Below are positions 43,159-59,708 of a stretch of 64,000 nt of DNA, one piece after another. The position numbers and the translations under genes were made by a program. The notes under the pieces were generated by a model. That model searched no databases, was not told the origin of the DNA, and saw only the letters and a list, made by a program, of their open reading frames with translations. The stretch spans positions 150,867 to 214,866 of the forward strand of contig MSGS01000031.1 in assembly GCA_001940855.1 (NCBI GenBank). The letters run 5' to 3'. Positions within the stretch are counted from its first letter, which is position 1, and every line of letters begins with the position of its first letter. Origin of the DNA: Christensenellaceae bacterium Phil1. GTDB taxonomy: Bacteria; Bacillota; Clostridia; Christensenellales; CAG-138.

Positions 43159-44046
43159 TCATTTCTTACGTGTTTTGGGGTCGAGTATCTCACGCACACC
43201 ATCACCCAGCAAATTGAATGCAAGCACGGTTATGAAGATGGCAATGCCCGGGAACACGCTATACCACCAAATATCCGGGAAGTAGTTGCGTGAGGTGCTT
43301 ATCATCAGTCCCCATTCCGGAGAAGGCGCCTGCGCACCAAGGCCGAGATAGCTCAGCGACGCAATGGTAAGAATAACACCGCCCATATCCATGGACGCCT
43401 GCACCACAACGGGTGAAATCGTATTGGGAATAATATGCTTGGCAACTATCTTCCACTTCGGCGTGCCGATGGTTTCCGCAGCCTGAATGAATTTGCGCTC
43501 TTTAAGCGAGATTGCCTGACCGCGTACAATGCGCGTATACCACGGCCACCATGCAAGCGCAATGGCGAGAATGGCATTATTCAAGCTTGGTCCCAGCATG
43601 GAAACAAGCAGGATTGCCAAAAGCATGGGCGGAAAGCTAAGGAAAATATCAGTAATGCGCATGATTACTTCATCTACCGCGCCGCCGGATGTACCTGCAA
43701 CGGCGCCGAGCGGCACGCCGATAACCAATGACAGGGCTACCGCAAGAACGGCCGTGCTAAGCGATATCCTCGTTCCGTAAAGAACTCGACTAAAAACATC
43801 GCGCCCAAGCTCATCCGTTCCGAATAGGTGCGCCGAAGAAGGGGGCTGGAATTTTACCGAAAGGTTGGTTTTATCCGCTATATCCTGCGGGTAAGGAACA
43901 ATTACGGGGGCAAGCAGAGCAATGACCAAAATCAGTATCAGCGCAATGACTGCCGCCATTGTAAGCGCGTTTTTGCGCAGCATGAATATCATGTCCCGCA
44001 GCTCTTTAATTGTCGGCCGAAGAATATCTTTCATTTTCTGATTCAT
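43159..44046 (-). CDS. Peptide-type ABC permease (DppC-like)
   Basis: 295 aa from ATG 44046 (GGAGG 6 nt upstream; the frame is open earlier). N-terminal helix, FGTDELGRDVFSRVLYGTRISL and the EAA loop (FIQAAETIGTPKWKIVAKHIIPNTI) typical of DppC/OppC permeases; six membrane helices in all. Pairs with the DppB-like subunit. Confidence 0.94.
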   Translation of the reverse strand: MNQKMKDILRPTIKELRDMIFMLRKNALTMAAVIALILILVIALLAPVIVPYPQDIADKTNLSVKFQPPSSAHLFGTDELGRDVFSRVLYGTRISLSTAVLAVALSLVIGVPLGAVAGTSGGAVDEVIMRITDIFLSFPPMLLAILLVSMLGPSLNNAILAIALAWWPWYTRIVRGQAISLKERKFIQAAETIGTPKWKIVAKHIIPNTISPVVVQASMDMGGVILTIASLSYLGLGAQAPSPEWGLMISTSRNYFPDIWWYSVFPGIAIFITVLAFNLLGDGVREILDPKTRKK

Positions 44047-44056
44047 GTTGTCCTCC

Positions 44057-45067
44057 TTACAGCCGGATGCGCGGGTCAAGCGCAATAATGATATCCGCAA
44101 CAAGATTAAGTATTACATAGAATATTGCAGAGATAATTGCAATACCCATAATTGCCGGATAATCCAGCGTAGTAACCGATTTGCTGACGTAGCTTCCTAA
44201 TCCCGGCCAACTGAAAATTGTTTCCGTAAGGAATGTATTGGTCAGCGAATATCCCATGGACAACGCAACAACCGTTGCGGTAGCGCCCAGGGAGTTCTTC
44301 AGCGCATAACGCCAAAGCACCCTGCCTTCCCGTATACCGTAGGATTTTGCGGCGGTTATATAGTCCTCGTTTAGAATTTCAAGCAGCGCAGAGCGCGTCA
44401 TGCGCGCAACGAGTCCGATAGGATAAAGCGCAATGGTAAAGCCAGGCATAATAATATGCACAAAAGCATCTCCCAACAGACCCCATGAACCGGTCAGAAT
44501 GCAGTCGAGTATCAGCATACCCGTAACGTTTGGCACATCGTACATCAGCGATGCACTTATGCTCATGCGTCCGCCAAGCGGCAGCCAGTTGAGGAGACGG
44601 TAAAAGACTAACTGAAATACCATCGCCACCCAGAAAGTCGGCAGCGAAACCGCACCTATTGAGAAAAAGCGGGTGGTGTGATCCAGCATTTTTCCGTTTT
44701 TCTTCGCGGAATAAATTCCCATTGGGATACCCACAAACATTGCAAACAGGAAAGCTACCAGCACCAGCTCCATCGTTGCGGGGAAATAGCTTGCAAGTTC
44801 CTTAGTAATGGGTTCCTTGGTTCGCAATGAACGGCCAAGATCACCGGAAAGAAGATCCTTCAAATAGTTCACATACTGCGTTACCAACGGTTTGTCCAAC
44901 CCAAGCTCAGCAATAGCTTGCTTACGCTGTTCTTCCGTAGCGCGTTCCCCGGCCCATTTGCCGGCTACATCCGAAGGGACGACGCGCGTGATGAAGAACG
45001 TAATGGTGACTACGCCCAGCAATACAATGAGGCCGTTAAGTAATCGTTTTATAATATATTTTACCAT
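44057..45067 (-). CDS. Peptide-type ABC permease (DppB-like)
   Basis: 336 aa. N-terminal IIKRLLNGLIVLLGVVTITF, then a periplasm-facing loop, and the EAA motif (DYITAAKSYGIREGRVLWRYALKNSL). Six helices. Ten base pairs separate it from the next permease gene; 81 bp with two hairpins separate it from the binding-protein gene. Confidence 0.94.
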   Translation of the reverse strand: MVKYIIKRLLNGLIVLLGVVTITFFITRVVPSDVAGKWAGERATEEQRKQAIAELGLDKPLVTQYVNYLKDLLSGDLGRSLRTKEPITKELASYFPATMELVLVAFLFAMFVGIPMGIYSAKKNGKMLDHTTRFFSIGAVSLPTFWVAMVFQLVFYRLLNWLPLGGRMSISASLMYDVPNVTGMLILDCILTGSWGLLGDAFVHIIMPGFTIALYPIGLVARMTRSALLEILNEDYITAAKSYGIREGRVLWRYALKNSLGATATVVALSMGYSLTNTFLTETIFSWPGLGSYVSKSVTTLDYPAIMGIAIISAIFYVILNLVADIIIALDPRIRL

Positions 45068-45094
45068 ATGTTCAGCATTCTCCTTTGTTATGCA

Positions 45095-45146
45095 AAGGGA
45101 GCAGCAGCTCCCCTTGCCGGTGTGCCTTATACCTGTAAAACAGGTA
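45095..45146 (-). promoter_or_regulatory. Two stem-loops between binding-protein and permease genes
   Basis: TACCTG / CAGGTA (45130-45146) and GGGAGC / GCTCCC (45097-45112), without U-runs. Such stem-loops usually stabilise the upstream binding-protein mRNA against 3' decay or cut read-through, so more binding protein than permease is made. Confidence 0.5.
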
Positions 45147-45148
45147 AT

Positions 45149-46717
45149 TTATTTATGGGTTATATTGAAAAACAGTACAGAGTTTGGATACGCCGGGTTA
45201 TAGTAGAAGCCATCGATTTCTTTGGAAACCACACAGGTGAGTACCTGATCGTAAACGGGGATCATATATGCGCCGTCCAAAACTCCCTCCTGCACTTCCT
45301 TGTACAGCTCCTCCGCTCTGGTGCGGTCCGTTGCGGTCAGCCGCATAGCTTCTTCAATCTTTGCATCCCACTCGGGGTTTTTAATATAACTCAGGTTAAA
45401 TGCAGGGGTCTCCTGAGAGTGTACCATGCTCTGGAACCAGCTTGAAGGATCCGCATAATCCGGCCACCATATCATAATGAATATATCCTGCCTGTCCTCG
45501 GGACGCGTAGCACGTGCATGCTCAATATGGGAATCCCAGCCGCGCTCACGGATTTCCATTGTGATGCCGATTTCCTTAAGATATGTCTGCCAAAGCTGCG
45601 CAAGATCCTTGTATTCGGTGTAACCAGACTGGATGGAAAACTCAAGCTTAACAGAGCTTACATCAATACCGGATTTTTCAAGGTATTCCCTCGCCTTATC
45701 CAGGTTAAACTCGTACTGTTTGCAGTTCTCGTCATGTCCCCAAAGACCGGGCGTTACAAGACCGTGGGAAAGCTGTCCGCGATTCTCAAGCACGCCGTTG
45801 ATCACTTCTTCATACGGGAACGAATAAGCAAGCGCTTTGCGGAAATCCTCGTTGCTGCAGGGCTGCTTTTCGCTATTAAAGAATAGCAGTATGTTGTTAT
45901 AAGTATTCAGATACTTAACTTCGACCTTTTCATTTGCCTTCAGCGCGGCTATATCCGTAGTGGAGAAATTGTAGCCGACATGAGCATCGCCCGTTTCAAG
46001 AAGCTGACGGCGGGTACCGCTTTCGACGTGTTTTTTTATGACGACCATTTTATAGGAATTCTCTTTCCATTCCCGCCAATATCCGTCATACGCGGAAAGC
46101 ATTACCTGGTCGCCGGTAACAAGGCTCTTTACGGTGTACGGACCGGAGCCGCCATCATTTCCTTCTTCGCTGTTGAACCAGTCGCCATCCTTATCGCATG
46201 CATCTTCGGATATGATGTAAGCCGCGTAAGCAGCGGAAGCTATCAGGTCTATCGATGTAGACTCGGAGCAGTTGAACCTAACCACATAATCACTTACTAC
46301 TTCAACGGATTCAACATTGGTCCAAATGTATGCAGCACCCTTGCCCAGTTTGATAGTACGATCGATAGACTTTTTGACTGCATTTGCATTCATTTTTGTG
46401 CCGTCATGGAAGCTTACATCCTCACGCAGTGTGAACTCCCATACCGTACCGTCATCGTTGTGCGTCCAGGAGGTAGCAAGATATGGTTCCACCTCGCCGG
46501 TCTGATCGTTGTAGCGGGTTAGCGTTTCATATACATTTTGGAGGACGCATACGCCGTTGGAATTTTCCACACTGGGATCCAGTGTTAGGTAGGGTTCCGA
46601 TCCGCATGCATAGTATAGAATTGCATCCGTGGTAGTTTTGCCGCCGCCCTGTACACAGCCTGCAAAAAGCGAAGCCACCAGAATAACGGCAAGCATCAGT
46701 ACTAAACTTCTTTTCAT
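45149..46717 (-). CDS. Peptide-type ABC substrate-binding lipoprotein
   Basis: Family 5 solute-binding protein, 522 aa. Lipobox FAGC (Cys21) after MKRSLVLMLAVILVASL. Motifs: LQNVYETLTRYN, LATSWTHNDDGTVWEFTLREDVSF, and a long C-lobe (FNLSYIKNPEWDAKIEEAMRLT). First gene of the island operon, divergent from the MerR regulator. AGGAGG lies upstream of the ATG. Ligand unknown; a modified peptide or hydantoin-like compound is inferred from the enzymes. Confidence 0.93.
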   Translation of the reverse strand: MKRSLVLMLAVILVASLFAGCVQGGGKTTTDAILYYACGSEPYLTLDPSVENSNGVCVLQNVYETLTRYNDQTGEVEPYLATSWTHNDDGTVWEFTLREDVSFHDGTKMNANAVKKSIDRTIKLGKGAAYIWTNVESVEVVSDYVVRFNCSESTSIDLIASAAYAAYIISEDACDKDGDWFNSEEGNDGGSGPYTVKSLVTGDQVMLSAYDGYWREWKENSYKMVVIKKHVESGTRRQLLETGDAHVGYNFSTTDIAALKANEKVEVKYLNTYNNILLFFNSEKQPCSNEDFRKALAYSFPYEEVINGVLENRGQLSHGLVTPGLWGHDENCKQYEFNLDKAREYLEKSGIDVSSVKLEFSIQSGYTEYKDLAQLWQTYLKEIGITMEIRERGWDSHIEHARATRPEDRQDIFIMIWWPDYADPSSWFQSMVHSQETPAFNLSYIKNPEWDAKIEEAMRLTATDRTRAEELYKEVQEGVLDGAYMIPVYDQVLTCVVSKEIDGFYYNPAYPNSVLFFNITHK

Positions 46718-47011: not shown

Positions 47012-47776
47012 ATGTGGGATAGGGAGAAAAATAAAACGGTAAGCATTTCAACAATTTCGCAAACATTAGGCATTCCTGCATCAACGCTGCGCTATTGGGA
47101 GTCCATGGGCTTAATCTCTTTAAATCGGTGCGACAACAACTACCGCGAATATACCTATTCTTCCCTGCTGGATCTTAGCGATATATATTATCTGCGTAAG
47201 CTCGGCATTTCCGTCAAGGCCATAAAAGAATATCAAATGTTCAGCCTTGAGGACAGCAAAGCCATATATTTAAACAAGAAAACAGAGCTTGAAGCAGAGA
47301 TCAACAGTTTGCATAATACCTATACCATGCTGCGCAAAACGCTTAACTTAATGGACGAATTGGAGTATATTCGGGAGCATCCTTATAAAGAATCACGGCC
47401 GGATATATCGTTTCTGCTCAGTCACTCCAAGCTTTACGACAAGGAGGTATGGGAGAAACATTTTTCCGGACAGTATCAGTTTGCAGGAGTGCGCTTGGGT
47501 CCGCCGAATTGCGAATGGGTTTGGGGATGGGCTGCAGAATCCCGCAAGCCTGATGAGGAGCTTGCATGGACCTTTGCGGAAGGAGATCGCCACTTTGTGC
47601 AGTTTATCCTTCGCATTGACGTAAAAGACCGCAAACACACCAATTTAGACGAAGCAATAAATTACCTGAAGGCCCGCGGTTATAACATTGGTGAAATCAT
47701 AGTGCGATATATCACAATCGCTTGTGAAGGCCAAACACGCTGGGATTATTATAAGGCATGGATAGAGATTATTTAA
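47012..47776 (+). CDS. MerR-family transcriptional regulator
   Basis: 254 aa. Winged helix-turn-helix SISTISQTLGIPASTLRYWESMGLI, followed by the dimer coiled coil (about 80-115) and a ~135-residue C-terminal domain rich in Trp and Arg (CEWVWGWAAESRKPDEELAW) that probably binds the inducer; no Cys cluster for metals. Divergent from the transporter operon, so likely its local regulator, perhaps sensing the imported compound. GGAGGA lies 9 nt before the ATG. Confidence 0.88.
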   Translation: MWDREKNKTVSISTISQTLGIPASTLRYWESMGLISLNRCDNNYREYTYSSLLDLSDIYYLRKLGISVKAIKEYQMFSLEDSKAIYLNKKTELEAEINSLHNTYTMLRKTLNLMDELEYIREHPYKESRPDISFLLSHSKLYDKEVWEKHFSGQYQFAGVRLGPPNCEWVWGWAAESRKPDEELAWTFAEGDRHFVQFILRIDVKDRKHTNLDEAINYLKARGYNIGEIIVRYITIACEGQTRWDYYKAWIEII

Positions 47777-48099: not shown

Positions 48100-48308
48100 A
48101 CTTAATTATAGCACGGAAAACCGAATATGCAAGTTCAGATTTCTTTATATTACCTTATAATGCGAATTAGATGCAAACGTCAGCATTTAGCAGCATAAGC
48201 GGTGCGTCAGCTTAATCATCTTGCACCCATATCGCTGTGCACGAACTCAATTTCGGCTTATCCCTTGCTGCTCGTTTATGCCTTCTTTTTACGCTTAAAA
48301 GCAACAAA
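48020..48308. repeat. 289-bp direct repeat, copy B
   Basis: Partner of 37562-37850. Here it overlaps the intact 3' end of the cohesin anchor gene (codons for FVAFKRKKKA and stop at 48276). It contains the 13-bp perfect hairpin CAAAAGGCAGAAG / CTTCTGCCTTTTG at 48024-48057 flanked by A and T runs (works as terminator in either direction), and the minus-strand promoter TTGCAT (48132-48127), 16 nt, TATAAT (48110-48105). Confidence 0.95.
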
Positions 48309-49286
48309 GAGTGCAATGCCGGCTACAAGCAACACTACAGGCAGTATTATGCTGTCCTCATCGCCGGTAACGGGCATTTCAGCCGTAGGCGGAGTAGGCA
48401 CGTTTGAGCCGGACCAACCTGGGTAGGGGTTACCGCCATTGCCGCCCGGATTGCTCGTGGGCTTTACAGTCGGAATAGGAGCCACCGTCGGGCTGGGTGC
48501 TATGGTCGGCGTAGGCGCTACTGTCGGAGAAGGTTCCGATGTCGGAGTGGGCGCTACGGTAGGAGTAGGTTCCGATGTCGGAGTGGGCGCTACGGTAGGA
48601 GTAGGTTCCATAGTCGGAGTAGGTTCAACTGTAGGGCTGGGTTCAACCGTCGGAGTAGGATCGGTCGTAGGAGTAGGATCTACCGTAGGAGTAGGATCTA
48701 CCGTAGGAGTAGGATCTACCGTAGGAGTAGGTTCTATCGTCGGTGTAGGCTCAACCGTAGGGGTAGGTTCTACTGTTGGAGTAGGCGTGGGATCTCCACT
48801 GGCGGGGCTTACGGAAACGGATACGGAATCAGCCGATATAGCGGGGCTATCGGTACCGGGAACCATTACGCATTCCCTAAGGCCTGAGGTAAATGCAGCC
48901 TGAGATTCGTTTGTTATGTCGCTCTTGGTGGTAAAGGTCAGGGTCATTATAACGCCTGCGGGGAGAGTTTGATCAAGGTTCATATCGAACCAGTTAATCT
49001 CAAGATAGTTATCGGGCGCGGTACCTTTTATAAGGTCTGCGCTGAGGTTGCTGCTCACAGAATTGCTGCCCGTAAGTTCGAACAGGTTTCCGTTAAAGCC
49101 CACTGTGAACGTGGCTGAGGCCATATTGATTATAGCCTCCTCAAGCGTAAGCGAAACGTTTACGCTTTCGCCCGCCTTTATGGCGGCGTTATCTACGCTT
49201 GGCGTAAGGCTTTGCGCCAATGCACCGGCTGCAATGCCCAATACCAGCGCAATTGCCAGTACAACAGAAAATAGTCTTTTTTTCAC
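48276..49286 (-). CDS. Sortase-anchored cohesin-domain protein
   Basis: 336 aa. Signal peptide about 1-24; cohesin-like domain 26-162 (IKAGESVNVSLTLEE, FTVGFNGNLFELTG, LEINWFDMN, VIMTLTFTTKS); Pro-Thr hexapeptide spacer 165-278; sortase signal MPVTG at 304-308, hydrophobic helix 313-330 and KRKKKA tail. It should be linked to the cell wall and hold a dockerin partner. The gene just upstream (18 bp gap, same strand) encodes a dockerin, which makes a cognate pair likely. Start is GTG after AAAGGAG. Cellulosome scaffoldins are the known parallel, but no enzymes are seen here. Confidence 0.85.
   Translation of the reverse strand: MKKRLFSVVLAIALVLGIAAGALAQSLTPSVDNAAIKAGESVNVSLTLEEAIINMASATFTVGFNGNLFELTGSNSVSSNLSADLIKGTAPDNYLEINWFDMNLDQTLPAGVIMTLTFTTKSDITNESQAAFTSGLRECVMVPGTDSPAISADSVSVSVSPASGDPTPTPTVEPTPTVEPTPTIEPTPTVDPTPTVDPTPTVDPTPTTDPTPTVEPSPTVEPTPTMEPTPTVAPTPTSEPTPTVAPTPTSEPSPTVAPTPTIAPSPTVAPIPTVKPTSNPGGNGGNPYPGWSGSNVPTPPTAEMPVTGDEDSIILPVVLLVAGIALFVAFKRKKKA
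48456..48791 (-). repeat. 18-bp tandem repeat coding the Pro-Thr spacer
   Basis: About 18 units of 18 bp coding (T/S)V(E/D/A)PTP-type hexapeptides. Units differ by point changes; adjacent VDPTPT units are nearly identical, a sign of slippage. Array length probably varies between strains, which changes how far the cohesin reaches from the wall. Confidence 0.9.
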
Positions 49287-49304
49287 TTTATATATTCTCC
49301 TTTA

Positions 49305-52300
49305 TCAGTTGGCACTTGCGGGAAAACTGCTTATCTTTCCCTTGCAGTAAAGAATTATGTTGCCGGCATCGCTTGAGGTGACCTGTCCGTCGCCGTTTAC
49401 GTCTGCCGCAAGAAGCTGCTCAGCGGCAAGCTCAGTCTTACCCTTCAGGTAAAGTATGACTATACCCGCGTCGGTGGAAGTTACTTCGCCATCGCCGTTC
49501 ACATCGCCGTACAATAGCGGCATTACTTTGCCGCATACGCTGCACTTGGTCTTGTCATCGGTGCCGCGGATATGGTGACGGGTCTCGGTGGGGCATTCCA
49601 CATAGTAGAACCTTATAATATCACCCTTCTTGAGAATATACTGGTCAAGCCTTGCCTGAGTTGTCTCATCAAGCATGGGAGAAGAACCGTTCACGGTGAA
49701 CATCCAGCCGGACCACGGGCCGTACTTCTCATCGGCCAAGCCAAGGGTTACGCCATCAGGCGAAGTTACCGAGTTAAGGTATGAACCGTTGCCGGTATAG
49801 GTGTAGCCGCTTTCGGTTATGGCTGCAACGACGGCATCCATGCCGGTCTTGTAATCCGCGCTGTTGCAGGTGTAAGTATAGTTGAAGTCCGTAAAGGTTT
49901 TGTCTATGGCGTTGCCGTCCATGTTTACGGTAACGCTTATAGTCTCGGCATTGGGATTATCTATACCTTCGGTGCCTATGACCTTCACTACTATGCTTAT
50001 GGGCTGCTTATAGAACTTGGCAAACTGAGCATAGTCGGCATTGTCTTTGAACTTCTCGTAGTACTTTGAATACTCGCTGTAAGAAAGCACGCTGTCTATC
50101 TTAACGCTGGTATTGTACTGCGGCTTAGTCAGCAGCAGGTTTTCGTGCTTAATTACCGTATCCTTGCTGGAGCGGAAGCAGCGGTACTTTTCGGAGGCGT
50201 ACCAGCCGTCTATGCTGTCGGCCTTAACGCCAACGCCCTTGGCATCATCGGCCGTGCGGATGAATTTGTATCCGTCTCCATCGGGAACTATCTCGATGAA
50301 ACTCCACATATCGCCTGTTATGTTGTCCTTAGCGGAGTTGGCCTTCTTTATGCCGTCCCAATACACTTCCTCTGTGCAGACCTTCTTCATGAAAGCTGCC
50401 GCGGTATCAAGCTCGTTCTGGGTAAGCGGCTGCACGGTAACTTCTATGGCTGCGCTTGCGAGCACATCGGTGGCTTCGCCTTCGCCGCTCGGTCTATCCA
50501 GTATTTGTATAGTGATGGTAACGCTTTTGGCTTCACGGCCGGGCAGCGGACGATAGGCCAGCACGCGCGCTGCGTTGTATACATCGGTGGAACTGATAAC
50601 GTCCTCGTTGCTGCTGGTGATCTTTATCGGCGTATATTTGCCGTCAAAGCCCTTGTTATAAAGCTGCATACTTAGCGCACTAAGGTCCTTGGTAGTAAAG
50701 AACTGAATGTCGCTTGCAACGTTGGCCTTATCGATATTGCTGTCGTTACGCGGATTGGTAAGTGCGTCTTCGGTTTCCAGCATCTTGTTCAGCAGTTCCT
50801 GATAATCTACGTCCTTTTCAACAACGCTGCCCTTTATGGTAACGTTGTAGGTTTTGTAGAGATACAGGTCGTCCCTGCCGCTGTAAGTGAGTTTAAGCGT
50901 AAGCACTACGGCAGTATCGCTGCTTGGTATGCTTACGGTAGCTTTGTAGGGCGAGAAGTAAGGATAGCTTACTTCTGAAATGGCAATGTCCTTGCTGCTG
51001 CTCTGCCATGTTGCGGTGGCCCAAAGCTCAAGGTCGGTAGAACTGCTGTAATCAACCTTGCTCTCATCTACGCCGGCCTTAACGGGGTATTTAGGCAGTT
51101 TGGTAAGATCGTCAGCGCTTTCTATGGTTTCGGGTACAGTTATCCTGTCCGCAACGGTTTTCAGCGCGGCTTTAGCCTTGGCTTCGTCCAGACCCATGCC
51201 AAAGTTGCAGGCGGTAGTTTCCTTAGTGTAAGTCTTGTAGGTCAGGATGAAAACGGGGCGTACATAGCCTGTAGCGCTGGAGGTGGAGCCGTTTTCGTTC
51301 CATTTGTAAATCAGGGTGCCGTCGTCTGCAACGCCAACATAGTTATAGCTTGAATAGTTGTCGTTTGCACCGGCCTTTACGGAAACGGTAACATCGGTTA
51401 TGCCGGCGGCGGTCAGCTTGGCCTGTATCATGGTAAGGGCGTTGGTGTCCTTGCCATAGGTGGGAAGATAGGTGCTGCTTATAGCTTCTTCGGCTGCGGT
51501 AAACTTGGCGTCGGCTTCCTTCTCCTCTTCGCTCTTGGCTTCAGTCCAAACGGCGTAAAGGTTGAAGGTTTCGTTATCCTCACTGCCGTCTCCCCAATCA
51601 TCTTCTTCCCAATCGCGCTTTATGGTTGCGCCATCGGTATAGGCTACGGTTGAGCCATAGCTGCTGGTAGCCCAGCCGGCAAAGTCATAACCTTCGCGGC
51701 TGTAAGTGCAGCGGTTGAGCACAACGTTTTCGCCGAAAGGAGCAGCCTGGTCTGCCATGGTGCCGGTGACGGATGACTTATCGGAATACTTTATGTTGTA
51801 TTTGATTATGTACTGATATCCGCGCCACTTGGCTATGAGCGTTACCTCATCGCCCATGGTGCTGAAATCCGTATCCTTGGTAACAGCCGCGCCAAAGCGG
51901 GCGTCTCCCTCACCATCAAGTTTGATATACCAGCTTTCAAGCCGCTTATCGGTGGGCATATAGCGCTCCGCCAAGTAAGGCAGATTGGTATACACCTTGC
52001 CGGGTACTACGGTTTTGTCGTTGATGGTCTGCGTATATCCGTTGCCGTCGAAATGTACGGTTATGCCCTTTTCCCAATGGGCATACATGATAAAGCCGTT
52101 TTCGGCATCTTCGGCGGTGAACTTCTTGTTGGATGGAGTAACTTCATTGCCGCCTTCGGGGGCGTCATACCAGCCAAGGAATATCCAGCCTGTGCGCGTG
52201 GGATCAGGAAGTGAGTCCTGCTTATATTTGCCGTCATCCTGACGCACATAGTTGTAATGGGAGCCAACCATGCCTACGCGTGTGATGCTTTCAGCGCCAT

Positions 52301-53492
52301 CGTAGTTATAATTTACGGTAATGTTAACAGGGTTGCCCTTCCACGTCACATACAGAGTTATGACTTTGTCCTGAACATTTGTAAGGTTCTTTACCGTGCC
52401 GCCATCCTGTACGGTGGGAGTCATATAGCCTTTATATGTGCTCCATCCGCTGAATGTGTAGCCCGTGCGGGTAAACCTGCCTTCGGCAAGAGGAATTGTT
52501 ACTTCCTGGTCATAGGTTGCAGAGATACTATCCATGCTGCCTTCGCCGCCGTCAGCATCAAATGCTATGGTATAGGTTATGGGAGCCCATTTGCCGGTAT
52601 AGGTTATATCCTCGTTTATGACGGTTTCTGCGGTAAGCTGAACACTTCCATTAAACCAGCCATCGAAGTTATAACCGGTACGTTTGATTGCCGCGGGGAT
52701 ATTGTTAGCGCCTATCTGCGCGCCCTTGGCAACGGCAACGGTTTTATCCTTGGTGGTGCCATAATTATAATTGAACGTTACGGTAACGGCATCGGCCCAC
52801 ACGGCATAAAGATCCATAGCCGTATCGGTTTCTATAGCCGCCTTATCGGCATAGGTTACTGCACCGTCCTTGACGGTAGCCCAGCCAGCGAACAGCTTGC
52901 CTTCGCAGGTGAAGGCGTTGGCATTAAGCACGCCCTTGCCGCCATATATGTTCTGCGTGGCGGTTTCATTGGTGCCGTTGTTGGCATGCAGCGTTATGAT
53001 AGTAGGAGCGCCTGCACTAAAGCCACGGACATATATGCAGTCGTCATTTTTATCGCCGCTGCTGTCCTTTTTGTAAACGATTGTTACAACATCACCCTTT
53101 TTGGCGTCTATTACAAGCCGCGTCCAGTCTATTATGCCGCTTACGCCGTCTACAAGCGTTTTGTTTCCCTGAGTGATGGTCAGCTTATCATATTTTTGTT
53201 CTGTAGAAACCTTATATTCAAATATAAGGTTTGTATCGGCGGTCATTGTTAGCTTCAACGTGCTGGAGCTGTTTGATTTGCCCTTATTGCCGCTCATCAG
53301 CACGTCCTCGCCGTCAAGCGTGGTTACTTTCCATTTGTTGGTGCTGCTCGATGATCCGGGCTCAGTCTCTGCTATGAGCGGGAGTCCGGTGAAAAAGTCG
53401 TCGAACGTTTTGTTGGCTGCAAGTGCGGACGCCGGCAGTATGCTTGCAAGCATCAGCAGCACAAGCAGCAGGGACAGAAGTTTTTTCTTCAT
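49305..53492 (-). CDS. Secreted dockerin protein with InlB-type repeats and DUF4430 domain
   Basis: 1,395 aa from ATG 53492 (AGGAGG 12 nt upstream). Signal peptide 1-25; beta-rich N-domain to ~160; about six InlB/Flg_new-type repeats between 165 and 650 with the RTGYxFxGW core; helical and Ig-like (aBig-type) regions ~655-1025; DUF4430, transcobalamin-like C-terminal domain, ~1184-1298 (GPWSGWMFTVNGSSPML, ILKKGDIIRFYYV); a CxxC knuckle at 1317-1320; type I dockerin 1328-1386 with two calcium loops (DVNGDGEVTSTDAG, DVNGDGQVTSSDAG). The dockerin should bind the cohesin encoded downstream. DUF4430 is related to the C-terminal part of intrinsic factor and transcobalamin, so cobalamin binding is a fair guess but unproven. 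Confidence 0.88.
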   Translation of the reverse strand: MKKKLLSLLLVLLMLASILPASALAANKTFDDFFTGLPLIAETEPGSSSSTNKWKVTTLDGEDVLMSGNKGKSNSSSTLKLTMTADTNLIFEYKVSTEQKYDKLTITQGNKTLVDGVSGIIDWTRLVIDAKKGDVVTIVYKKDSSGDKNDDCIYVRGFSAGAPTIITLHANNGTNETATQNIYGGKGVLNANAFTCEGKLFAGWATVKDGAVTYADKAAIETDTAMDLYAVWADAVTVTFNYNYGTTKDKTVAVAKGAQIGANNIPAAIKRTGYNFDGWFNGSVQLTAETVINEDITYTGKWAPITYTIAFDADGGEGSMDSISATYDQEVTIPLAEGRFTRTGYTFSGWSTYKGYMTPTVQDGGTVKNLTNVQDKVITLYVTWKGNPVNITVNYNYDGAESITRVGMVGSHYNYVRQDDGKYKQDSLPDPTRTGWIFLGWYDAPEGGNEVTPSNKKFTAEDAENGFIMYAHWEKGITVHFDGNGYTQTINDKTVVPGKVYTNLPYLAERYMPTDKRLESWYIKLDGEGDARFGAAVTKDTDFSTMGDEVTLIAKWRGYQYIIKYNIKYSDKSSVTGTMADQAAPFGENVVLNRCTYSREGYDFAGWATSSYGSTVAYTDGATIKRDWEEDDWGDGSEDNETFNLYAVWTEAKSEEEKEADAKFTAAEEAISSTYLPTYGKDTNALTMIQAKLTAAGITDVTVSVKAGANDNYSSYNYVGVADDGTLIYKWNENGSTSSATGYVRPVFILTYKTYTKETTACNFGMGLDEAKAKAALKTVADRITVPETIESADDLTKLPKYPVKAGVDESKVDYSSSTDLELWATATWQSSSKDIAISEVSYPYFSPYKATVSIPSSDTAVVLTLKLTYSGRDDLYLYKTYNVTIKGSVVEKDVDYQELLNKMLETEDALTNPRNDSNIDKANVASDIQFFTTKDLSALSMQLYNKGFDGKYTPIKITSSNEDVISSTDVYNAARVLAYRPLPGREAKSVTITIQILDRPSGEGEATDVLASAAIEVTVQPLTQNELDTAAAFMKKVCTEEVYWDGIKKANSAKDNITGDMWSFIEIVPDGDGYKFIRTADDAKGVGVKADSIDGWYASEKYRCFRSSKDTVIKHENLLLTKPQYNTSVKIDSVLSYSEYSKYYEKFKDNADYAQFAKFYKQPISIVVKVIGTEGIDNPNAETISVTVNMDGNAIDKTFTDFNYTYTCNSADYKTGMDAVVAAITESGYTYTGNGSYLNSVTSPDGVTLGLADEKYGPWSGWMFTVNGSSPMLDETTQARLDQYILKKGDIIRFYYVECPTETRHHIRGTDDKTKCSVCGKVMPLLYGDVNGDGEVTSTDAGIVILYLKGKTELAAEQLLAADVNGDGQVTSSDAGNIILYCKGKISSFPASAN

Positions 53493-53552
53493 TGCTTGTT
53501 TAATACCTCCTAAGTTACATGTTTTGCGGTCTTTAGAGGCGCTTTTTATAAT

Positions 53553-53631
53553 AAAAAAAGCCAACGCGATTCATGCGGAGAGTATGCTTCCGTATGACAT
53601 CTTCGTTGGACTTCGGTTCTTCCGACAGTCC
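53553..53631 (-). promoter_or_regulatory. Structured leader with terminator-like end before the dockerin gene
   Basis: Minus strand: hairpin GGAC-CGG / CCG-GTCC (53631-53608), then stem CCAACG / CGTTGG (53609-53604 with 53566-53561) enclosing an inner 9-bp hairpin (one mismatch), then TTTTTTT (53559-53553). It ends the DUF2292 transcript or acts as an attenuator of the dockerin-cohesin operon 61 nt further on. I could not assign it to a riboswitch class. Confidence 0.5.
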
Positions 53632-53674
53632 GGCCTCACAGCCGTAAAACTTTTCTGCAATTTTTAGTTGTGCG

Positions 53675-53851
53675 TCACTTGATTTGAACGCTTTTTTGCA
53701 CCTCGGCATGGACGGGTTGTCCGCCTTTTACGGTGATAACAAGATGGCCGTAATCCATCTCCCGCATCAGCCTAAGCACTTGATAATCCTGCGTGGTTAT
53801 ATCCTTTACCGCATCATGCACGCTTGTGCTTTCCGCCCGGCCTTGTTCCAT
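53675..53851 (-). CDS. DUF2292 (YezD-like) small protein
   Basis: 58 aa, ATG 53851, GGGGGAGG 9 nt upstream, stop at 53675. The C-terminal half (QVLRLMREMDYGHLVITVKG) has the DUF2292 pattern L-x5-YG-x-[LV]-x-[IV]-x-[VI], as in Bacillus YezD, a small protein of unknown function reported in sulfur-related regulons. The N-terminal 20 residues are polar and variable. Sits directly behind the riboswitch-like leader and its terminator. Confidence 0.75.
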   Translation of the reverse strand: MEQGRAESTSVHDAVKDITTQDYQVLRLMREMDYGHLVITVKGGQPVHAEVQKSVQIK

Positions 53852-53900
53852 GAGCTTATACCTCCCCCTATTTTGTATTTATCCGTGTATTAACTCCGCT

Positions 53901-53929
53901 AAAAAAGACCCACACATGCCGTGCGGATC
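53901..53929 (-). terminator. Terminator in the riboswitch leader
   Basis: Minus strand: GAUCCGCAC / GUGUGGGUC, 9 continuous pairs with two G-U, 5-nt loop, followed by TTTTTT. Strong intrinsic terminator 50 nt before the DUF2292 start codon, suited to be the expression platform of the upstream aptamer. Confidence 0.75.
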
Positions 53930-53953
53930 TTGTCTTTCTTGATATTCATGAAC

Positions 53954-53986
53954 AAAAAAAGCAGCTTCCCGGTGACGGCAGGAACC
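53954..53986 (-). terminator. Second hairpin with T-run in the riboswitch leader
   Basis: Minus strand: GGTTCC / GGGAAGC imperfect stem and then TTTTTTT at 53960-53954. Weaker pairing than the next hairpin but a longer T-run. It directly follows the aptamer 3' end. Confidence 0.5.
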
Positions 53987-54001
53987 ATACGATCCTATAA
54001 C

Positions 54002-54145
54002 GTATCTGACTTATCCCGTAAAGGGCATCACAGTGACCGACTCGCGGGGCATCTCACCCACTTCCGTCTCCGAATTCATCCGGAAGGATCAACAGCTGAT
54101 ATTTGGCTTTTCCAGCGGCAAACACCGCTTTCACATATATATGTT
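54002..54145 (-). promoter_or_regulatory. Cobalamin-riboswitch-like aptamer
   Basis: Core elements of the cobalamin aptamer appear in order on the minus strand: GGAAG (54065-54061), GGGTGAGATGCCC hairpin (54059-54047, matching GGTGxxAxxCC), TCACTGTGA (54036-54028, matching the CCACTGT box), a CCC/GGG stem, and AAGTCAG (54012-54006). 5' part with GCGGTG/GCCGC stem extends to about 54130. Two T-run hairpins follow. Direction is away from the LysR-type gene and toward the DUF2292, dockerin and cohesin genes. P1 pairing was not resolved by eye. Confidence 0.72.
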
Positions 54146-54346: not shown

Positions 54347-55279
54347 TTAAATCAGATTATTTGATATAACGCTTTCTACGCATTTCTTAATGACGTTTAG
54401 AAGTTCTACAAAATATTCTTTCTTAAGTAGCTCATGGTCATATTTGATACATAGAGGGCTTGAGAGTATCGGATCGCCTACCATCAGGAACACAGGACGC
54501 TTAATATAATGAAATTGCGCGGCATAGCTTTCTCTTGTGAAACATATTCCAAGCCCCTCTGATGCCAGCTGCATTGCCGTCTCAATGTGAGCTATTTCGG
54601 TATAGTTCTTTATCTTAAATGAGTTTTGCCTACAAAATGAGTCAATATCACTCCGCAAACTTGCGCCGTGAGGAGACAAAATGAAAGGACCGTTTACAGT
54701 ATGTATGTCTATCCATCTGTAACTCATATCCGGAAGGTATACGCTTGCGCCGATTACCGGATCTGTTCTTGAGACGGTTAATAGCACTTTTTCGTTTAGC
54801 AGGACTTCTCCATCATTGCTATCTATACCAAATTGGTCGTTGTATATCAATATATCAAGGGCTTTATCTTCGTATTTTTCTATCAAAGATGCCCATTCAC
54901 CAAGTGTAAACTGCAATTCAACATCCGGATACTTCTCTCGGAAGTTCTTTATGATGTTTACGGTAAGTGTAGTGCTGCGCTTTCGTTGAAGTCCTATTCG
55001 GATTCGACCGGTAATGCCAGCGCGAATGTCATTTACCTCTCGTTCAAACTCATCCTGCAACTCTATCATTTGGCGTGCTTTGTGCACATACAGTTCTCCA
55101 GTATATGTGAGTTTCAGGTTTTTACCGCTGCGATCGAAGAGTTGTATGCCCATCGACTTTTCTACATTGCTTATGTACATACTAAGAGCCGGCTGGGATA
55201 TATACAGCCGTTTAGCCGCTTCTGTTATGGAACCACATTCTGCCAATGTGCATATATATTCTTGGGTCTTAAGGTTCAT
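54347..55279 (-). CDS. LysR-family transcriptional regulator
   Basis: 310 aa. N-terminal helix-turn-helix MNLKTQEYICTLAECGSITEAAKRLYISQPALSMYISNVEK, effector domain with two lobes (GRIRIGLQRKRSTTLTVNI; DILIYNDQFG). Divergent from the M20/peptide-import operon with a 378-bp gap, so it probably controls that operon and itself. GGGGGGG precedes the ATG. Ligand unknown, perhaps a peptide breakdown product. Confidence 0.93.
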   Translation of the reverse strand: MNLKTQEYICTLAECGSITEAAKRLYISQPALSMYISNVEKSMGIQLFDRSGKNLKLTYTGELYVHKARQMIELQDEFEREVNDIRAGITGRIRIGLQRKRSTTLTVNIIKNFREKYPDVELQFTLGEWASLIEKYEDKALDILIYNDQFGIDSNDGEVLLNEKVLLTVSRTDPVIGASVYLPDMSYRWIDIHTVNGPFILSPHGASLRSDIDSFCRQNSFKIKNYTEIAHIETAMQLASEGLGICFTRESYAAQFHYIKRPVFLMVGDPILSSPLCIKYDHELLKKEYFVELLNVIKKCVESVISNNLI

Positions 55280-56852: not shown

Positions 56853-57809
56853 ATGTGGAAATACGTATTAAAGCGATTATTGCTGCTTATTCCCGTAATG
56901 CTTGGCACGATACTTGTGGTGTTCTTCATAATGGATCAGTCTGATGTTGACCCTGCTAAGGTGATGCTAGGCGATGCGGCTACAGAAGAAACCATAGCGC
57001 AGCTGCATGAAGAACTAGGATTGGATGATCCATTTCTTGTAAGGTATGCAAGATATGTACTGAACCTGATTAAAGGAGATATGGGTACATCCTATAACTA
57101 CCATACTCCTGTTGCAAATCAGATTGCAGCAAGGCTGCCAAATACAATATTGCTTGCAGGCACCGCTGTGCTGCTTACTATAATTGTTGGTATCCCGATA
57201 GGTGTATTGGCGGCAAAAAAGCAGTATAGCTTCTTTGATAACATATCAATGGTGTTTTGCCTGTTTGGCGCTGCATCGCCTGCATTCTGGATAGGCCTTA
57301 TACTCGTTCTTGTGTTTAGTCTTAAATTACCTATCCTTCCAGCATCTGGAATGGGCAAAGGCTTCATCAACTGTCTCCTATCTCTCATTCTTCCAGCTAT
57401 AACGTTGAGTCTGCATGGTACGGCTACTGCTGCGAGGACTACGCGATCATCAATGCTTGATACGATACGCCAGGATTACATTGACACGGCGCGGGCTAAA
57501 GGTACTAGCGAGAAGGTGATTACTCGCAAGCATATGCTGAGAAATGCACTGATACCCGTAATTACGGCTGTTGGTCTAAACTTTGGTGTTCTGCTTGGCG
57601 GGTCAGTATTGACTGAAACGGTGTTCGCATGGCCGGGAATAGGAAGGTATGTAATAGAATCCATAAAAACGCAGGATATCCCAAGCGTATTGGGCTGCGT
57701 AGTAACCCTTTCTGTGATGTTTACGATTGTTAATGTTCTTGTTGATATTCTGTACGCCTTTGTTGATCCACGTATAAAGGCACAGTACAAGCGTGCTGGG
57801 AGGAAATAA
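56853..57809 (+). CDS. dppB: Oligopeptide ABC permease (DppB-like)
   Basis: 318 aa, six helices. N-terminal WKYVLKRLLLLIPVMLGTILVVF, EAA loop DYIDTARAKGTSEKVITRKHMLRNAL. Four base pairs after the M20 gene stop; two base pairs before the next gene. Complete and typical. Confidence 0.95.
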   Translation: MWKYVLKRLLLLIPVMLGTILVVFFIMDQSDVDPAKVMLGDAATEETIAQLHEELGLDDPFLVRYARYVLNLIKGDMGTSYNYHTPVANQIAARLPNTILLAGTAVLLTIIVGIPIGVLAAKKQYSFFDNISMVFCLFGAASPAFWIGLILVLVFSLKLPILPASGMGKGFINCLLSLILPAITLSLHGTATAARTTRSSMLDTIRQDYIDTARAKGTSEKVITRKHMLRNALIPVITAVGLNFGVLLGGSVLTETVFAWPGIGRYVIESIKTQDIPSVLGCVVTLSVMFTIVNVLVDILYAFVDPRIKAQYKRAGRK

Positions 57810-57811
57810 CC

Positions 57812-58723
57812 ATGAATGAAAAGCAAACCGGCAATATAGTAACTAATGGTATAAACAGCCGCAGCTTATGGGCCGAAGCATGGCTAAGGTTCAAACGTAA
57901 TCGCGTAGCTGTTGCCGGACTAATATTCGTTGCCTTTCTTATCGTCGTATCAATAGCTACCTTGGTATTGGATTTGGTTACGTCCAATGAAATATACAAT
58001 GCTTACGTTGTAAAGCAGAACCTTTCTCTAAAATTGGCTCCGCCGAGTGCTGAACACGTATTCGGCTGTGATGAATATGGCCGCGACATACTTTTCAGGC
58101 TTATCTGGGGTACGAGATATTCTTTGTTCATTGGTGTTGTATCCATAGCCATAGCGCTTGTAGGCGGCGGTATACTTGGTTCTATTGCCGGATTCTATGG
58201 CGGAAAAGTGGACCAAATGATTATGCGAGTGATGGATGTATTCCTTTCTATTCCTTCTATGGTTATGGCAATAGCAATCGTATCGGCCTTAGGTACAGGC
58301 ATGACGAACTTGCTCTTTTCAATAGCTGTGCCGCAGATACCACGCCTTGCAAGAATTGTCAGGGCATCTGTAATGTCTGTAAAGGATAGGGAATTTGTGG
58401 AAGCAGCGCGTTCAGTTGGCGCTGGTGATTTTGAGATAATACTCAAGTATATAATTCCAAATGCCCTCTCCCCTATCATTGTTCAGGCATCGCTGAGTGT
58501 AGGCGCTGCAATCTTGTCAATAGCAGGTCTTAGCTTCCTTGGCATAGGCGTGCAGCCACCTGCACCGGAGTGGGGTTCAATCCTTAATGCAGCCCGCACA
58601 TATATGAGAGATGCTTGGCATATTTCAGTCATTCCTGGATTGATGATAATGATAACGGTACTTTCGTTGAATGTTGCAGGAGATGGACTGCGCGATGCGC
58701 TTGATCCAAAGCTGAAAAACTAA
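57812..58723 (+). CDS. dppC: Oligopeptide ABC permease (DppC-like)
   Basis: 303 aa. N-terminal helix after a 30-residue tail, FGCDEYGRDILFRLIWGTRYSLF and EAA loop FVEAARSVGAGDFEIILKYIIPNAL; ends in DGLRDALDPKLKN, as DppC proteins do. GGAGG 8 nt upstream. Confidence 0.95.
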   Translation: MNEKQTGNIVTNGINSRSLWAEAWLRFKRNRVAVAGLIFVAFLIVVSIATLVLDLVTSNEIYNAYVVKQNLSLKLAPPSAEHVFGCDEYGRDILFRLIWGTRYSLFIGVVSIAIALVGGGILGSIAGFYGGKVDQMIMRVMDVFLSIPSMVMAIAIVSALGTGMTNLLFSIAVPQIPRLARIVRASVMSVKDREFVEAARSVGAGDFEIILKYIIPNALSPIIVQASLSVGAAILSIAGLSFLGIGVQPPAPEWGSILNAARTYMRDAWHISVIPGLMIMITVLSLNVAGDGLRDALDPKLKN

Positions 58724-58736
58724 ATGGAGATATCAC

Positions 58737-59693
58737 ATGAGCTTTTTAAGTATTGATAATTTAAAAGTTGACTACGTGACTGATGATGGCATTGTTCATG
58801 CACTTAACGGCGTAAGTCTTGAACTGGTGCAGGGTGAAACGCTTGGCCTTGTAGGTGAAACCGGAGCCGGCAAAACGACAATGGCCAAATGCATAATGGG
58901 AATATTGCCAAAGCGTACCGGAAAAATCAGGTCCGGAGAAATAACGTTTGAAGAAAAGAATTTGTTAAAGTGCTCCGAAAAAGAGTTGCAAAGTATTCGC
59001 GGCGCACAGATAGCCATGATATTCCAGGACCCTATGACCTCACTCAATCCTGTTCTTACGGTTGGTGAGCAGATAGCTGAAGCCGTTGAAAACCACGAGC
59101 GTTGTGGCAAGGCGCGCGCTATGGAGCGTGCTGAAGAAATGCTGGAACTTGTAGGCATACCGGCAGAGCGTGTGCATGAATATCCGCATCAGTTTTCTGG
59201 CGGCATGAAGCAGAGGGTTGTTATAGCTATTGCACTGGCATGTAATCCTAAAATGCTTATAGCGGATGAACCTACGACGGCGCTTGACGTTACCATACAG
59301 GCTCAGGTTCTGGAAATGATGCAGTCACTTAAGCGTCAGCTTAATACATCGATGCTGCTGATAACGCATGACCTTGGTGTTGTTGCCCAGAATTGCGACC
59401 GTGTTGCGGTTATATATGCCGGTGAGATAGTTGAATATGGCACAGTAATGGACGTGTTCAAACGCATGAAACACCCGTACACACAAGGTTTATTCTCTTC
59501 CATACCGCAGATAAACGCAGATGTGAAACGGCTCAACTCAATTCCGGGATTGATGCTTGATCCAACGCTTGATGTAGAAGGATGTAGGTTCTGCGACAGG
59601 TGCAAATATGCTACCGAAGAATGTCGTATCAACCATCCGGAATTAGTTGAAATCGAGTCCGGCCATTCCGTGCGGTGTTTTCAGAAGAAATAA
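58737..59693 (+). CDS. dppD: Oligopeptide ABC ATP-binding protein (DppD-like)
   Basis: 318 aa: Walker A GETGAGKTT, Q-loop FQDPMTSLNP, signature FSGGMKQRV, Walker B LIADEPTTALDV, H-loop ITHD, and the C-terminal Cys-rich oligopeptide motif (CRFCDRCKYATEEC). Works with the DppF-like subunit. Confidence 0.95.
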   Translation: MSFLSIDNLKVDYVTDDGIVHALNGVSLELVQGETLGLVGETGAGKTTMAKCIMGILPKRTGKIRSGEITFEEKNLLKCSEKELQSIRGAQIAMIFQDPMTSLNPVLTVGEQIAEAVENHERCGKARAMERAEEMLELVGIPAERVHEYPHQFSGGMKQRVVIAIALACNPKMLIADEPTTALDVTIQAQVLEMMQSLKRQLNTSMLLITHDLGVVAQNCDRVAVIYAGEIVEYGTVMDVFKRMKHPYTQGLFSSIPQINADVKRLNSIPGLMLDPTLDVEGCRFCDRCKYATEECRINHPELVEIESGHSVRCFQKK

Positions 59694-59708
59694 GGAGGGC
59701 GAGCGCAT

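Follow-up and report, generated by a model that had tools for sequence, protein, structure and literature searches.

The BtuB/BtuG/BtuH systems of Bacteroidetes capture vitamin B12 at the surface of gut bacteria under the control of cobalamin riboswitches. The locus described here lies in a 64-kb stretch of the genome of Christensenellaceae bacterium Phil1 (the window) and is probably a cobalamin-regulated surface cassette in which a corrinoid catcher is held by a cohesin–dockerin joint. The proposed cassette shares with the BtuB/BtuG/BtuH systems surface corrinoid capture, cobalamin riboswitch control and a gut bacterial host, whereas its wall is of the Gram-positive type, its proteins are unrelated and its display would proceed through non-covalent cohesin–dockerin contacts. 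No paper linking DUF4430 or cohesin–dockerin pairs with cobalamin riboswitches was found in the literature searched. The parts follow one another in the order riboswitch, DUF2292-like gene, dockerin protein gene and cohesin protein gene, all on the minus strand, as a sequence-only reading of the window had given them:

53958–54090, minus strand: variant cobalamin-type riboswitch aptamer (held-out covariance model, covariation counts, reading of the outer stem); aptamer 53958–54073 plus the outer stem out to 54090; parts: outer stem GAUCC/GGAUC (54086–54090 with 53991–53995), P3, P4, P5, P6 and P13; core letters CGCGAGUCGGUCACUGUGA..UAAGUCAGAUAC
53899–53931, minus strand: intrinsic terminator in the expression platform of the riboswitch, AAGAUCCGCAC..GUGUGGGUCUU plus U-run (fold −15.2 kcal/mol)
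53675–53851, minus strand: DUF2292-like (YezD-type) protein, 58 aa (Pfam, ortholog position)
53608–53631, minus strand: conserved hairpin GGACUGUCGGAAGAACCGAAGUCC (counterpart elements in genomes G021 and G644)
53551–53614, minus strand: terminator-like stem plus U7 (folding)
49305–53492, minus strand: secreted protein, 1,395 aa (Pfam)
49599–49943, minus strand: DUF4430 module, residues 1184–1298 (Pfam; family profile against transcobalamin)
49356–49511, minus strand: type I dockerin, residues 1328–1379 (Pfam; residue comparison)
48276–49286, minus strand: cell-wall protein, 336 aa (Pfam/NCBIfam)
48792–49211, minus strand: cohesin domain, residues 26–165 (AlphaFold model and fold match)
48282–48374, minus strand: sorting signal AEMPVTG, membrane helix and KRKKK (TIGR01167)

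The genes for the 1,395-aa protein and the cohesin protein are separated by 18 bases. Neither the terminator at 53899–53931 nor the hairpin/terminator element at 53551–53631, in the interval between the DUF2292-like gene and the large gene, had figured in the sequence-only reading.

The RNA resembles the Cobalamin riboswitch clan (RF00174, Cobalamin; RF01482, AdoCbl) in its core letters, its P3/P4/P6 architecture, the placement of L5 opposite the P13 loop, its terminator platform and the corrinoid genes downstream. It differs from the clan in falling under every Rfam cut-off, in a near-invariant GAGUCGGUCACUGUGA..AAGUCAGAUAC core, in the missing P7–P11 domain, in a frequent extra hairpin 5′ of P3 and in the position of P13 immediately after the outer stem. 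At gathering score, Rfam gave zero matches over the 64-kb window. The best Rfam cobalamin score of the window RNA was 21.5 bits (RF01482, cut-off 50), RF00174 was not listed at E ≤ 10, and none of 18 other variant loci reached an Rfam cut-off at the variant site. The sequence-only reading had proposed a cobalamin-riboswitch-like aptamer and had counted such an Rfam result against itself; the check is negative because the public models miss this subclass, a reason which that reading did not foresee. A covariance model (R2) built without any sequence of the source genome scored the window RNA at 100 bits (E = 1.2e-31), its sole match in the 64 kb. Helices P3, P4, P6 and P13 covary, 16 of the 26 base pairs in the variant alignment show compensatory change, and 94.7% of the cells in that alignment are paired, versus 31–51% once it is slid. 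The L5–L13 contact (UCGG with CCGR) could form in 90.8% of the cells, yet its pairs barely vary. The covariation and the held-out score bear out the proposed aptamer, and the idea of a decayed pseudo-riboswitch was dropped because of them. The exact core pattern matches more than 119 sites in Clostridia genomes, the yield of that one exact pattern. The cultured Pseudoflavonifractor phocaeensis An858 is among the carriers of the variant. A bridging RNA in G009, followed by a DUF4430 gene, scores 47.4 bits with RF00174 and 32.8 bits with the variant model. These results support the assignment of the window RNA to a well-defined subclass of cobalamin-type riboswitches that is absent from Rfam calls.

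Corrinoid synthesis and uptake genes stand under the variant RNA copies. Among 79 genes standing first behind other copies, 11 encode tetrapyrrole methylases, 7 BtuF-like proteins, 6 DUF4430 proteins, 4 CbiD, 4 CbiK, 3 HemC, 2 CobT and 1 CbiC, and 9 carry SLH surface anchors; about half of the scannable first genes after variant sites are corrinoid-linked. By reading of the sequences, one family of 101-aa proteins is found after a canonical riboswitch in the source genome (L154) and after the variant in G034 and G014. A dedication of the variant to DUF2292 was considered and dropped: no DUF2292-type motif occurs within 3 kb downstream at the other variant loci retrieved, and in G021 and G644 the riboswitches ahead of DUF2292 are of the canonical type. 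The ligand of the window RNA is probably a corrinoid. Binding of a different corrinoid form, or of some unrelated compound, by a mere descendant of cobalamin riboswitches appears very improbable: the altered L5 (GAGUCGG replacing the usual loop), the nearly invariant core and the failure of the Rfam models would fit such a ligand, whereas the conserved J6/3 and P6 letters CACUGUGA..AAGUCAG are retained, and the downstream genes serve corrinoid synthesis and uptake, with the same families standing under canonical riboswitches.

The order of riboswitch, DUF2292, dockerin protein and cohesin protein recurs in G021 and G644, there under canonical-type cobalamin riboswitches. In G021, an RF00174 match of 55.9 bits is followed by the three genes, and its cohesin is the best match of the window cohesin. 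G644, from another family, has the identical gene order; its riboswitch is 81% identical to that of G021, and the cohesin proteins of these two genomes share 38% identity over 487 aa. The DUF2292-like protein keeps its position in both, with 31% identity. The small protein had been named DUF2292 from the sequence; this holds by Pfam for the G644 ortholog (22.6 bits) and less firmly for the window copy, which scores 14.8 bits with PF10055 against a cut-off of 22. That a decayed riboswitch merely adjoins unrelated surface genes is scarcely credible. The RNA is present in only 8 of the 51 genomes of the family, with close relatives lacking it, which speaks for chance, but the window RNA scores 104 bits with the class model, its covarying helices are intact and the cassette occurs in three genomes.

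The interval between the DUF2292-like gene and the large gene contains the conserved hairpin, which has an equivalent site in G021 and G644, and the terminator-like stem. The 5′ arm of the stem shares 7 nt with the 3′ arm of the hairpin, the two folds being mutually exclusive, and the overlap in G021 is alike. Rfam gave no match in this interval, and viral contigs contained no copy of the hairpin; matching hairpins in G362 and G341 lie in coding sequence and were set aside as chance. Since the hairpin/terminator stands between DUF2292 and the two large genes, their control by B12 needs read-through, and it would be less direct than the sequence-only reading supposed. A rather improbable alternative is that the riboswitch governs DUF2292 alone, the hairpin/terminator ends the transcript and the dockerin–cohesin pair is controlled separately. 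The strong terminator-like stem with U7 before the large gene, in the window as in G021, is consistent with this arrangement, as is the presence of the hairpin element in G644 ahead of another secreted protein, there without DUF2292 or a riboswitch. Against it, the order of riboswitch, DUF2292, element, dockerin and cohesin is maintained across two families, the 7-nt overlap has the form of a conditional attenuator, unlike a plain end, and a scan of this interval, in itself weak evidence, found no promoter-like site. B12 control of the 1,395-aa protein and cohesin genes through read-through is the reading that we infer.

By Pfam, the 1,395-aa protein consists of a signal peptide, a beta-rich region at the N-terminus, five Listeria-Bacteroides (InlB-type) repeats, DUF4430 and a dockerin, with a long stretch lacking domain assignment at residues ~690–1180. 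The claim of a secreted protein with DUF4430 and a dockerin was thus confirmed, the DUF4430 module scoring 23.8 bits with PF14478, exactly the cut-off (27.9 bits in the genome search), and the dockerin reaching E = 2.4e-15. DUF4430 is located at the C-terminus of transcobalamins (PMC4350170). The proposed tie to transcobalamin also held, in that the DUF4430 family profile matches the beta domain of transcobalamin-2 (5no0; E = 0.002) and transcobalamin-1 (E = 0.004). The predicted model of the window module is poor (pLDDT 54.7), with Z scores of 2.0–2.4 to 3u7z and transcobalamin; Foldseek found no usable match with it for this reason, and the profile search was taken instead. A phmmer search of the PDB with a sister DUF4430 protein gave no useful match. 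The profile matches support a relationship between DUF4430 and the cobalamin-binding beta domain of transcobalamin; the window module is predicted to bind corrinoids.

Each of the four DUF4430 genes in the source genome is preceded by a cobalamin-type riboswitch, and such linkage is also found in G007, G009, G072 and G128. G128 contains the nearest outside relative of the window module, immediately behind an AdoCbl riboswitch (RF01482, 71.9 bits); a gene for an ECF-type membrane protein comes next. A sister operon (C31:112049) encodes a 965-aa protein with an alpha-toroid (weak match), DUF4430 and a dockerin, i.e. the transcobalamin layout, and toroid–DUF4430 proteins bearing SLH or dockerin anchors recur within the regulon. 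The likeness to transcobalamin, intrinsic factor and haptocorrin lies in this pairing of alpha-toroid and DUF4430 in the sister proteins and in the profile match; in contrast to those carriers, the DUF4430 proteins are bacterial, surface-anchored and set within repeat-rich proteins. The 1,395-aa protein further differs from transcobalamin in that Pfam detects no alpha-toroid, the domain that completes a transcobalamin-type site, and its corrinoid binding is a prediction.

An alternative with a lesser but appreciable chance is that the B12-regulated surface proteins are not corrinoid binders and serve adhesion, matrix building or the capture of partner cells or particles rich in corrinoids, with DUF4430 a relic or specific for another ligand. 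Pfam detects no DUF4430 in the cassette dockerin proteins of G021 and G644, which contain Ig-type and other repeats; the 1,395-aa protein itself consists mainly of InlB-type repeats, frequent in adhesins, and the solved bacterial DUF4430 relative 3u7z is annotated merely as a putative metal-binding protein. The riboswitch linkage of the DUF4430 genes and the recurrence of anchored toroid–DUF4430 proteins in the regulon argue against this alternative and for the corrinoid catcher. Further down the same strand, G021 encodes a DUF4430-like protein and a protein with an alpha-toroid. Given these and the lack of a Pfam DUF4430 match in the dockerin proteins of both genomes, the cassette itself is wider than a single corrinoid binder. 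The earlier idea of surface display under B12 shortage finds support in large part, in that the cohesin–dockerin pair stands in a B12-linked cassette found in three genomes, and has to be widened as to its content.

The 336-aa protein comprises a signal peptide, the cohesin, a Pro-Thr-Glu rich stalk and an LPXTG-type anchor. The cohesin domain scores 21.2 bits with PF00963, under the cut-off of 24.1, and its AlphaFold model (pLDDT 86.9) superimposes on the OlpC cohesin 4dh2 with Z = 14.5 over 131 residues at 2.5 Å; the top 24 listed entries are cohesins. The anchor reaches 17.1 bits with TIGR01167 (cut-off 15.9) and 17.7 bits with PF00746, which falls below its cut-off of 20. The features of a sortase substrate, namely the motif MPVTG, a membrane helix and a basic tail, are all present, in agreement with the sortase-anchored cohesin protein proposed from the sequence. 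The C-terminal tail is shared with the 1,248-aa protein that the sister B12 operon also encodes, 33 of 56 residues being identical. The dockerin contains two 22-residue calcium-loop repeats with the F-hand motif, DVNGDGEVTSTD.. and DVNGDGQVTSSD.., and its recognition residues (ST..IL / SS..IL) differ from those of the genome's other six dockerins, among which IA/VT..CR residues occur. Judged by these residues, the window cohesin may pair with the window dockerin. The cohesin fold and the duplicated calcium-loop dockerin resemble the type I cohesin–dockerin pairs of cellulosomes, and the wall-anchored cohesin is reminiscent of OlpA and OlpC. Unlike the cellulosomal pairs, the cassette is without a glycoside hydrolase or carbohydrate-binding module and is placed in a B12 regulon. 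Pfam found enzyme domains neither in the window pair nor among the proteins of the G021 and G644 cassettes, and the window pair is not a cellulosome in the sense of dockerin-borne carbohydrate-active enzymes on a scaffoldin.

In the mechanism that we propose, scarcity of corrinoids would lead the variant riboswitch to allow transcription past its terminator into DUF2292, and read-through of the second, conserved hairpin/terminator switch would carry it on into the genes for the DUF4430 protein with its dockerin and the cohesin protein with its sortase anchor. The cohesin protein would be fixed to the wall and would grip the secreted 1,395-aa protein, cohesin to dockerin. The DUF4430 module, which is of the transcobalamin type, may then help to catch corrinoids at the cell surface, to be passed to uptake systems encoded by the same B12 regulon. 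A more general proposal, which we put forward tentatively and with less confidence than that for the locus, is that in gut Clostridia a large corrinoid riboswitch subclass missed by Rfam runs transcobalamin-type, wall-displayed B12 catchers with interchangeable anchors (SLH, LPXTG or a dedicated cohesin–dockerin joint), the second hairpin/terminator switch of this cassette gating its surface genes, so that the catcher would be displayed only on the agreement of two signals.

These findings suggest two novelties, a hidden riboswitch subclass and the use of cohesin–dockerin display in a B12 regulon. The covariance model allows the subclass to be tested across all public genomes together. The subclass alone implies that the annotation of B12 regulons is incomplete in many rumen and gut Clostridia. 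If the proposed mechanism is true, the cassette would represent a Gram-positive counterpart to the B12-capture systems of Bacteroidetes and the first vitamin-uptake role for cohesin–dockerin joints, and bacterial DUF4430 proteins would be connected with the way in which the B12 carriers of animals arose.

Every feature that the sequence-only reading had named in the window of Christensenellaceae bacterium Phil1 could be confirmed; all lie on the minus strand, in the order claimed.

Cassette and intervening element in the window
53958-54090 (-), variant riboswitch scoring below Rfam cut-offs
53675-53851 (-), DUF2292-like small protein
53551-53631 (-), conserved hairpin ACUGNCGGAAGAACCGAAGU overlapping a terminator, upstream of secreted surface proteins
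49305-53492 (-), 1,395-aa DUF4430-dockerin protein
48276-49286 (-), 336-aa cohesin protein

The DUF4430 domain proposed for the 1,395-aa protein scores 23.8 bits, precisely the Pfam cut-off, while the proposed dockerin is strongly matched as type I (E 2.4e-15); Pfam also recognizes five Listeria-Bacteroides repeats in this protein. The 336-aa protein is encoded 18 bases from the 1,395-aa gene. Its proposed LPXTG-type anchor passes NCBIfam, whereas its cohesin falls slightly below the Pfam cut-off. The predicted model of this cohesin is good (pLDDT 86.9), matching solved cohesins with Z up to 14.5 in structure comparison. The small protein is DUF2292-like, as claimed, but the window copy alone scores below the cut-off. 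Since the dockerin recognition residues (ST..IL / SS..IL) are unlike those of the other six Phil1 dockerins (IA, VA, VT, TR and others), a dedicated partner would fit. Two oligopeptide-type ABC transporter gene sets lie on either side of the region (43159-46717 and 56853-60686), accompanied by MerR-type (47012-47776) and LysR-type (54347-55279) regulators.

The cobalamin aptamer claimed at the head of the cassette is absent at Rfam gathering scores from the 64 kb searched, in which the window RNA scores at best 21.5 bits to RF01482 (cut-off 50); the RNA is nevertheless real, a member of a class overlooked by Rfam. Its leader DNA matched a second site in Phil1 (contig C67) and two relatives; in all of them a variable hairpin lies between CGCGAGUCGGUCACUGUGA and UAAGUCAGAUAC. 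Scanning a single genome per species for this core pattern yielded at least 119 stretches; those listed are nearly all from Clostridia, with labels mostly of Oscillospiraceae and related groups, and viral contigs gave one match. In 40 variant sequences from the scan, pairing holds in 94.7% of paired cells and both sides change in 16 of 26 pairs, with covariation in all four helices (P3, P4, P6, and P13), while pairing falls to 31–51% when the partners are slid as a control. Because the class was found via the core letters, its core is to some extent invariant by construction; the helices outside the core are exempt. A held-out covariance model, built without Phil1 sequences, scores the window RNA at 100 bits (E 1.2e-31), its sole match in the 64 kb. 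The variant site passes Rfam at none of 18 other loci, three of which have a canonical cobalamin riboswitch nearby. Canonical and variant riboswitches lie close together at loci L030, L089, and L019, back to back on opposite strands in the first two. A new, widespread subclass of the cobalamin riboswitch, a known rather than a new kind of element, is largely supported.

Features outside the window
C67:6827-6940 of Phil1 (G000; loci L228, L017), second riboswitch of the variant type, scored at 94.7 bits by the held-out model
Locus L072, 895-aa DUF4430–alpha-toroid–SLH protein under the variant
Locus L058, 1,974-aa DUF4430–SLH protein under the variant
L154:5177-5482 (-) and L013:1684-1990 (+), protein of about 101 aa without a Pfam match

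Judged from gene company and descent, the variant is a cobalamin-type switch. Among the 79 first downstream genes scanned with Pfam, tetrapyrrole methylases account for 11, BtuF-type binding proteins for seven, DUF4430 for six, CbiD and CbiK for four each, porphobilinogen deaminases for three, CobT for two, and CbiC for one; nine carry S-layer anchors. In genome G009, an RNA preceding a DUF4430 gene scores 47.4 bits with RF00174 and 32.8 bits with the variant model, and is a bridge from canonical to variant. The 101-aa family, which by sequence reading follows a canonical riboswitch in Phil1 (L154) and the variant in G034/G014, is likely a B12-linked protein of unassigned role. Downstream of the second Phil1 variant come a terminator and, at a distance of about 500 nt, a TetR-type regulator, with no clear B12 gene adjoining the riboswitch. 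Two further genes under the variant, L039:5409-7310 (-) and L131:462-2585 (+), fuse CbiK (cobalt chelatase family) to S-layer homology domains, apparently yielding extracellular CbiK-like proteins.

The Phil1 genome itself ties DUF4430 to B12. It contains seven RF00174 riboswitches and two variants, and all four of its DUF4430 genes lie downstream of one type or the other. Genes for uptake and salvage also belong to the regulon: on C45, BtuF/BtuCD-type genes and CobTUS, named from sequence reading, and on C47, CbiK, which is not among the genes so named. The first match of a DUF4430 profile, made from 31 sequences including the window module, was 3u7z, a bacterial protein whose annotation is putative metal binding; the beta domain of transcobalamin-2 (E 0.002) and transcobalamin-1 (E 0.004) came next. 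DUF4430 has been placed at the C-terminus of transcobalamins (PMC4350170). The window module gave a poor predicted model, with weak structural matches (Z 2.0–2.4) to 3u7z and transcobalamins.

Sister operon of Phil1, C31:112049-123601 (L150), in order
Canonical riboswitch, 106 bits
DUF4430 lipoprotein-like protein, ABC ATPase, membrane-anchored protein, FtsX-type permease (ABC parts named from sequence reading)
965-aa protein with a weak squalene-cyclase-like toroid, DUF4430, repeats, and a dockerin
1,248-aa PQQ-propeller protein, with a sorting tail matching the one on the window cohesin protein

The toroid assignment draws on sub-cut-off matches and similarity to toroid proteins of L072 and of G021, a genome from another genus of the family. 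This operon and C22:18000-28200 (L151) are B12-riboswitch operons in which DUF4430 lipoprotein-like proteins are coupled to ABC systems of MacB/FtsX-like type, which is unusual company for a vitamin-linked protein. Other cohesin/dockerin clusters of Phil1 (C45:97000-109500, L152; C77:4500-7500, L153) have transglutaminase-like and SpoIID-like dockerin proteins, and their content is not cellulosomal.

The cassette recurs in G021 after a canonical RF00174 riboswitch (55.9 bits): DUF2292 comes first, then a dockerin protein of 962 aa and a cohesin protein of 693 aa. The window cohesin finds its best match in the cohesin of the latter (36%, E 8e-7). Downstream lie an LPXTG protein, another 693-aa protein that aligns (E 8e-15) with the sister 965-aa protein in its DUF4430 region, an alpha-toroid protein, and a PQQ-dockerin relative of the 1,248-aa protein. 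G021 has only two RF00174 riboswitches, and the non-cassette one sits just upstream of a DUF4430 match. In G644, from another family, a riboswitch called by alignment to that of G021 (81% identical over 139 nt) is followed by a DUF2292 exceeding the Pfam cut-off and a dockerin protein of 2,201 aa, and then by a cohesin protein that shares 38% identity with its G021 counterpart over 487 aa. Pfam detects no DUF4430 in the cassette dockerin proteins of either genome. These comparisons largely support a conserved B12-linked cohesin-dockerin cassette, again of a known kind. Neither this cassette nor the variant subclass is described in the literature found, in a search outside most subscription journals.

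Between DUF2292 and the 1,395-aa gene, the hairpin GGACUGUCGGAAGAACCGAAGUCC precedes a terminator-like stem and U7. This element is kept at the equivalent place in G021 and G644; outside the window it is located at L226:8520-8610 (-), L241:8150-8245 (-), and L242:7195-7330 (+). On contig C15 of G644, it stands without DUF2292 or riboswitch upstream of another secreted protein, with a related copy in tandem. The window copy has no Rfam match. Because the 5' arm of the terminator overlaps the 3' arm of the hairpin by 7 nt in the window and G021, the two folds are mutually exclusive. The element looks like a putative conditional attenuator; a processive antitermination site would be an alternative.

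The overall proposal, that a corrinoid-binding DUF4430-dockerin protein is displayed on the wall through a sortase-anchored cohesin under cobalamin shortage, is largely supported and can be sharpened, with a cobalamin-type RNA and a conserved B12-linked cassette. Mainly because of the hairpin/terminator element, control of the two large genes by B12 alone is not claimed. In the most likely mechanism, whose RNA-to-gene steps draw on comparison, corrinoid shortage would open the riboswitch, allowing DUF2292 to be made, and if the second switch were also permissive, the secreted DUF4430-dockerin protein and the wall-bound cohesin would be made as well. These two would then join outside the cell, where, judging by family resemblance, DUF4430 would help catch corrinoids.
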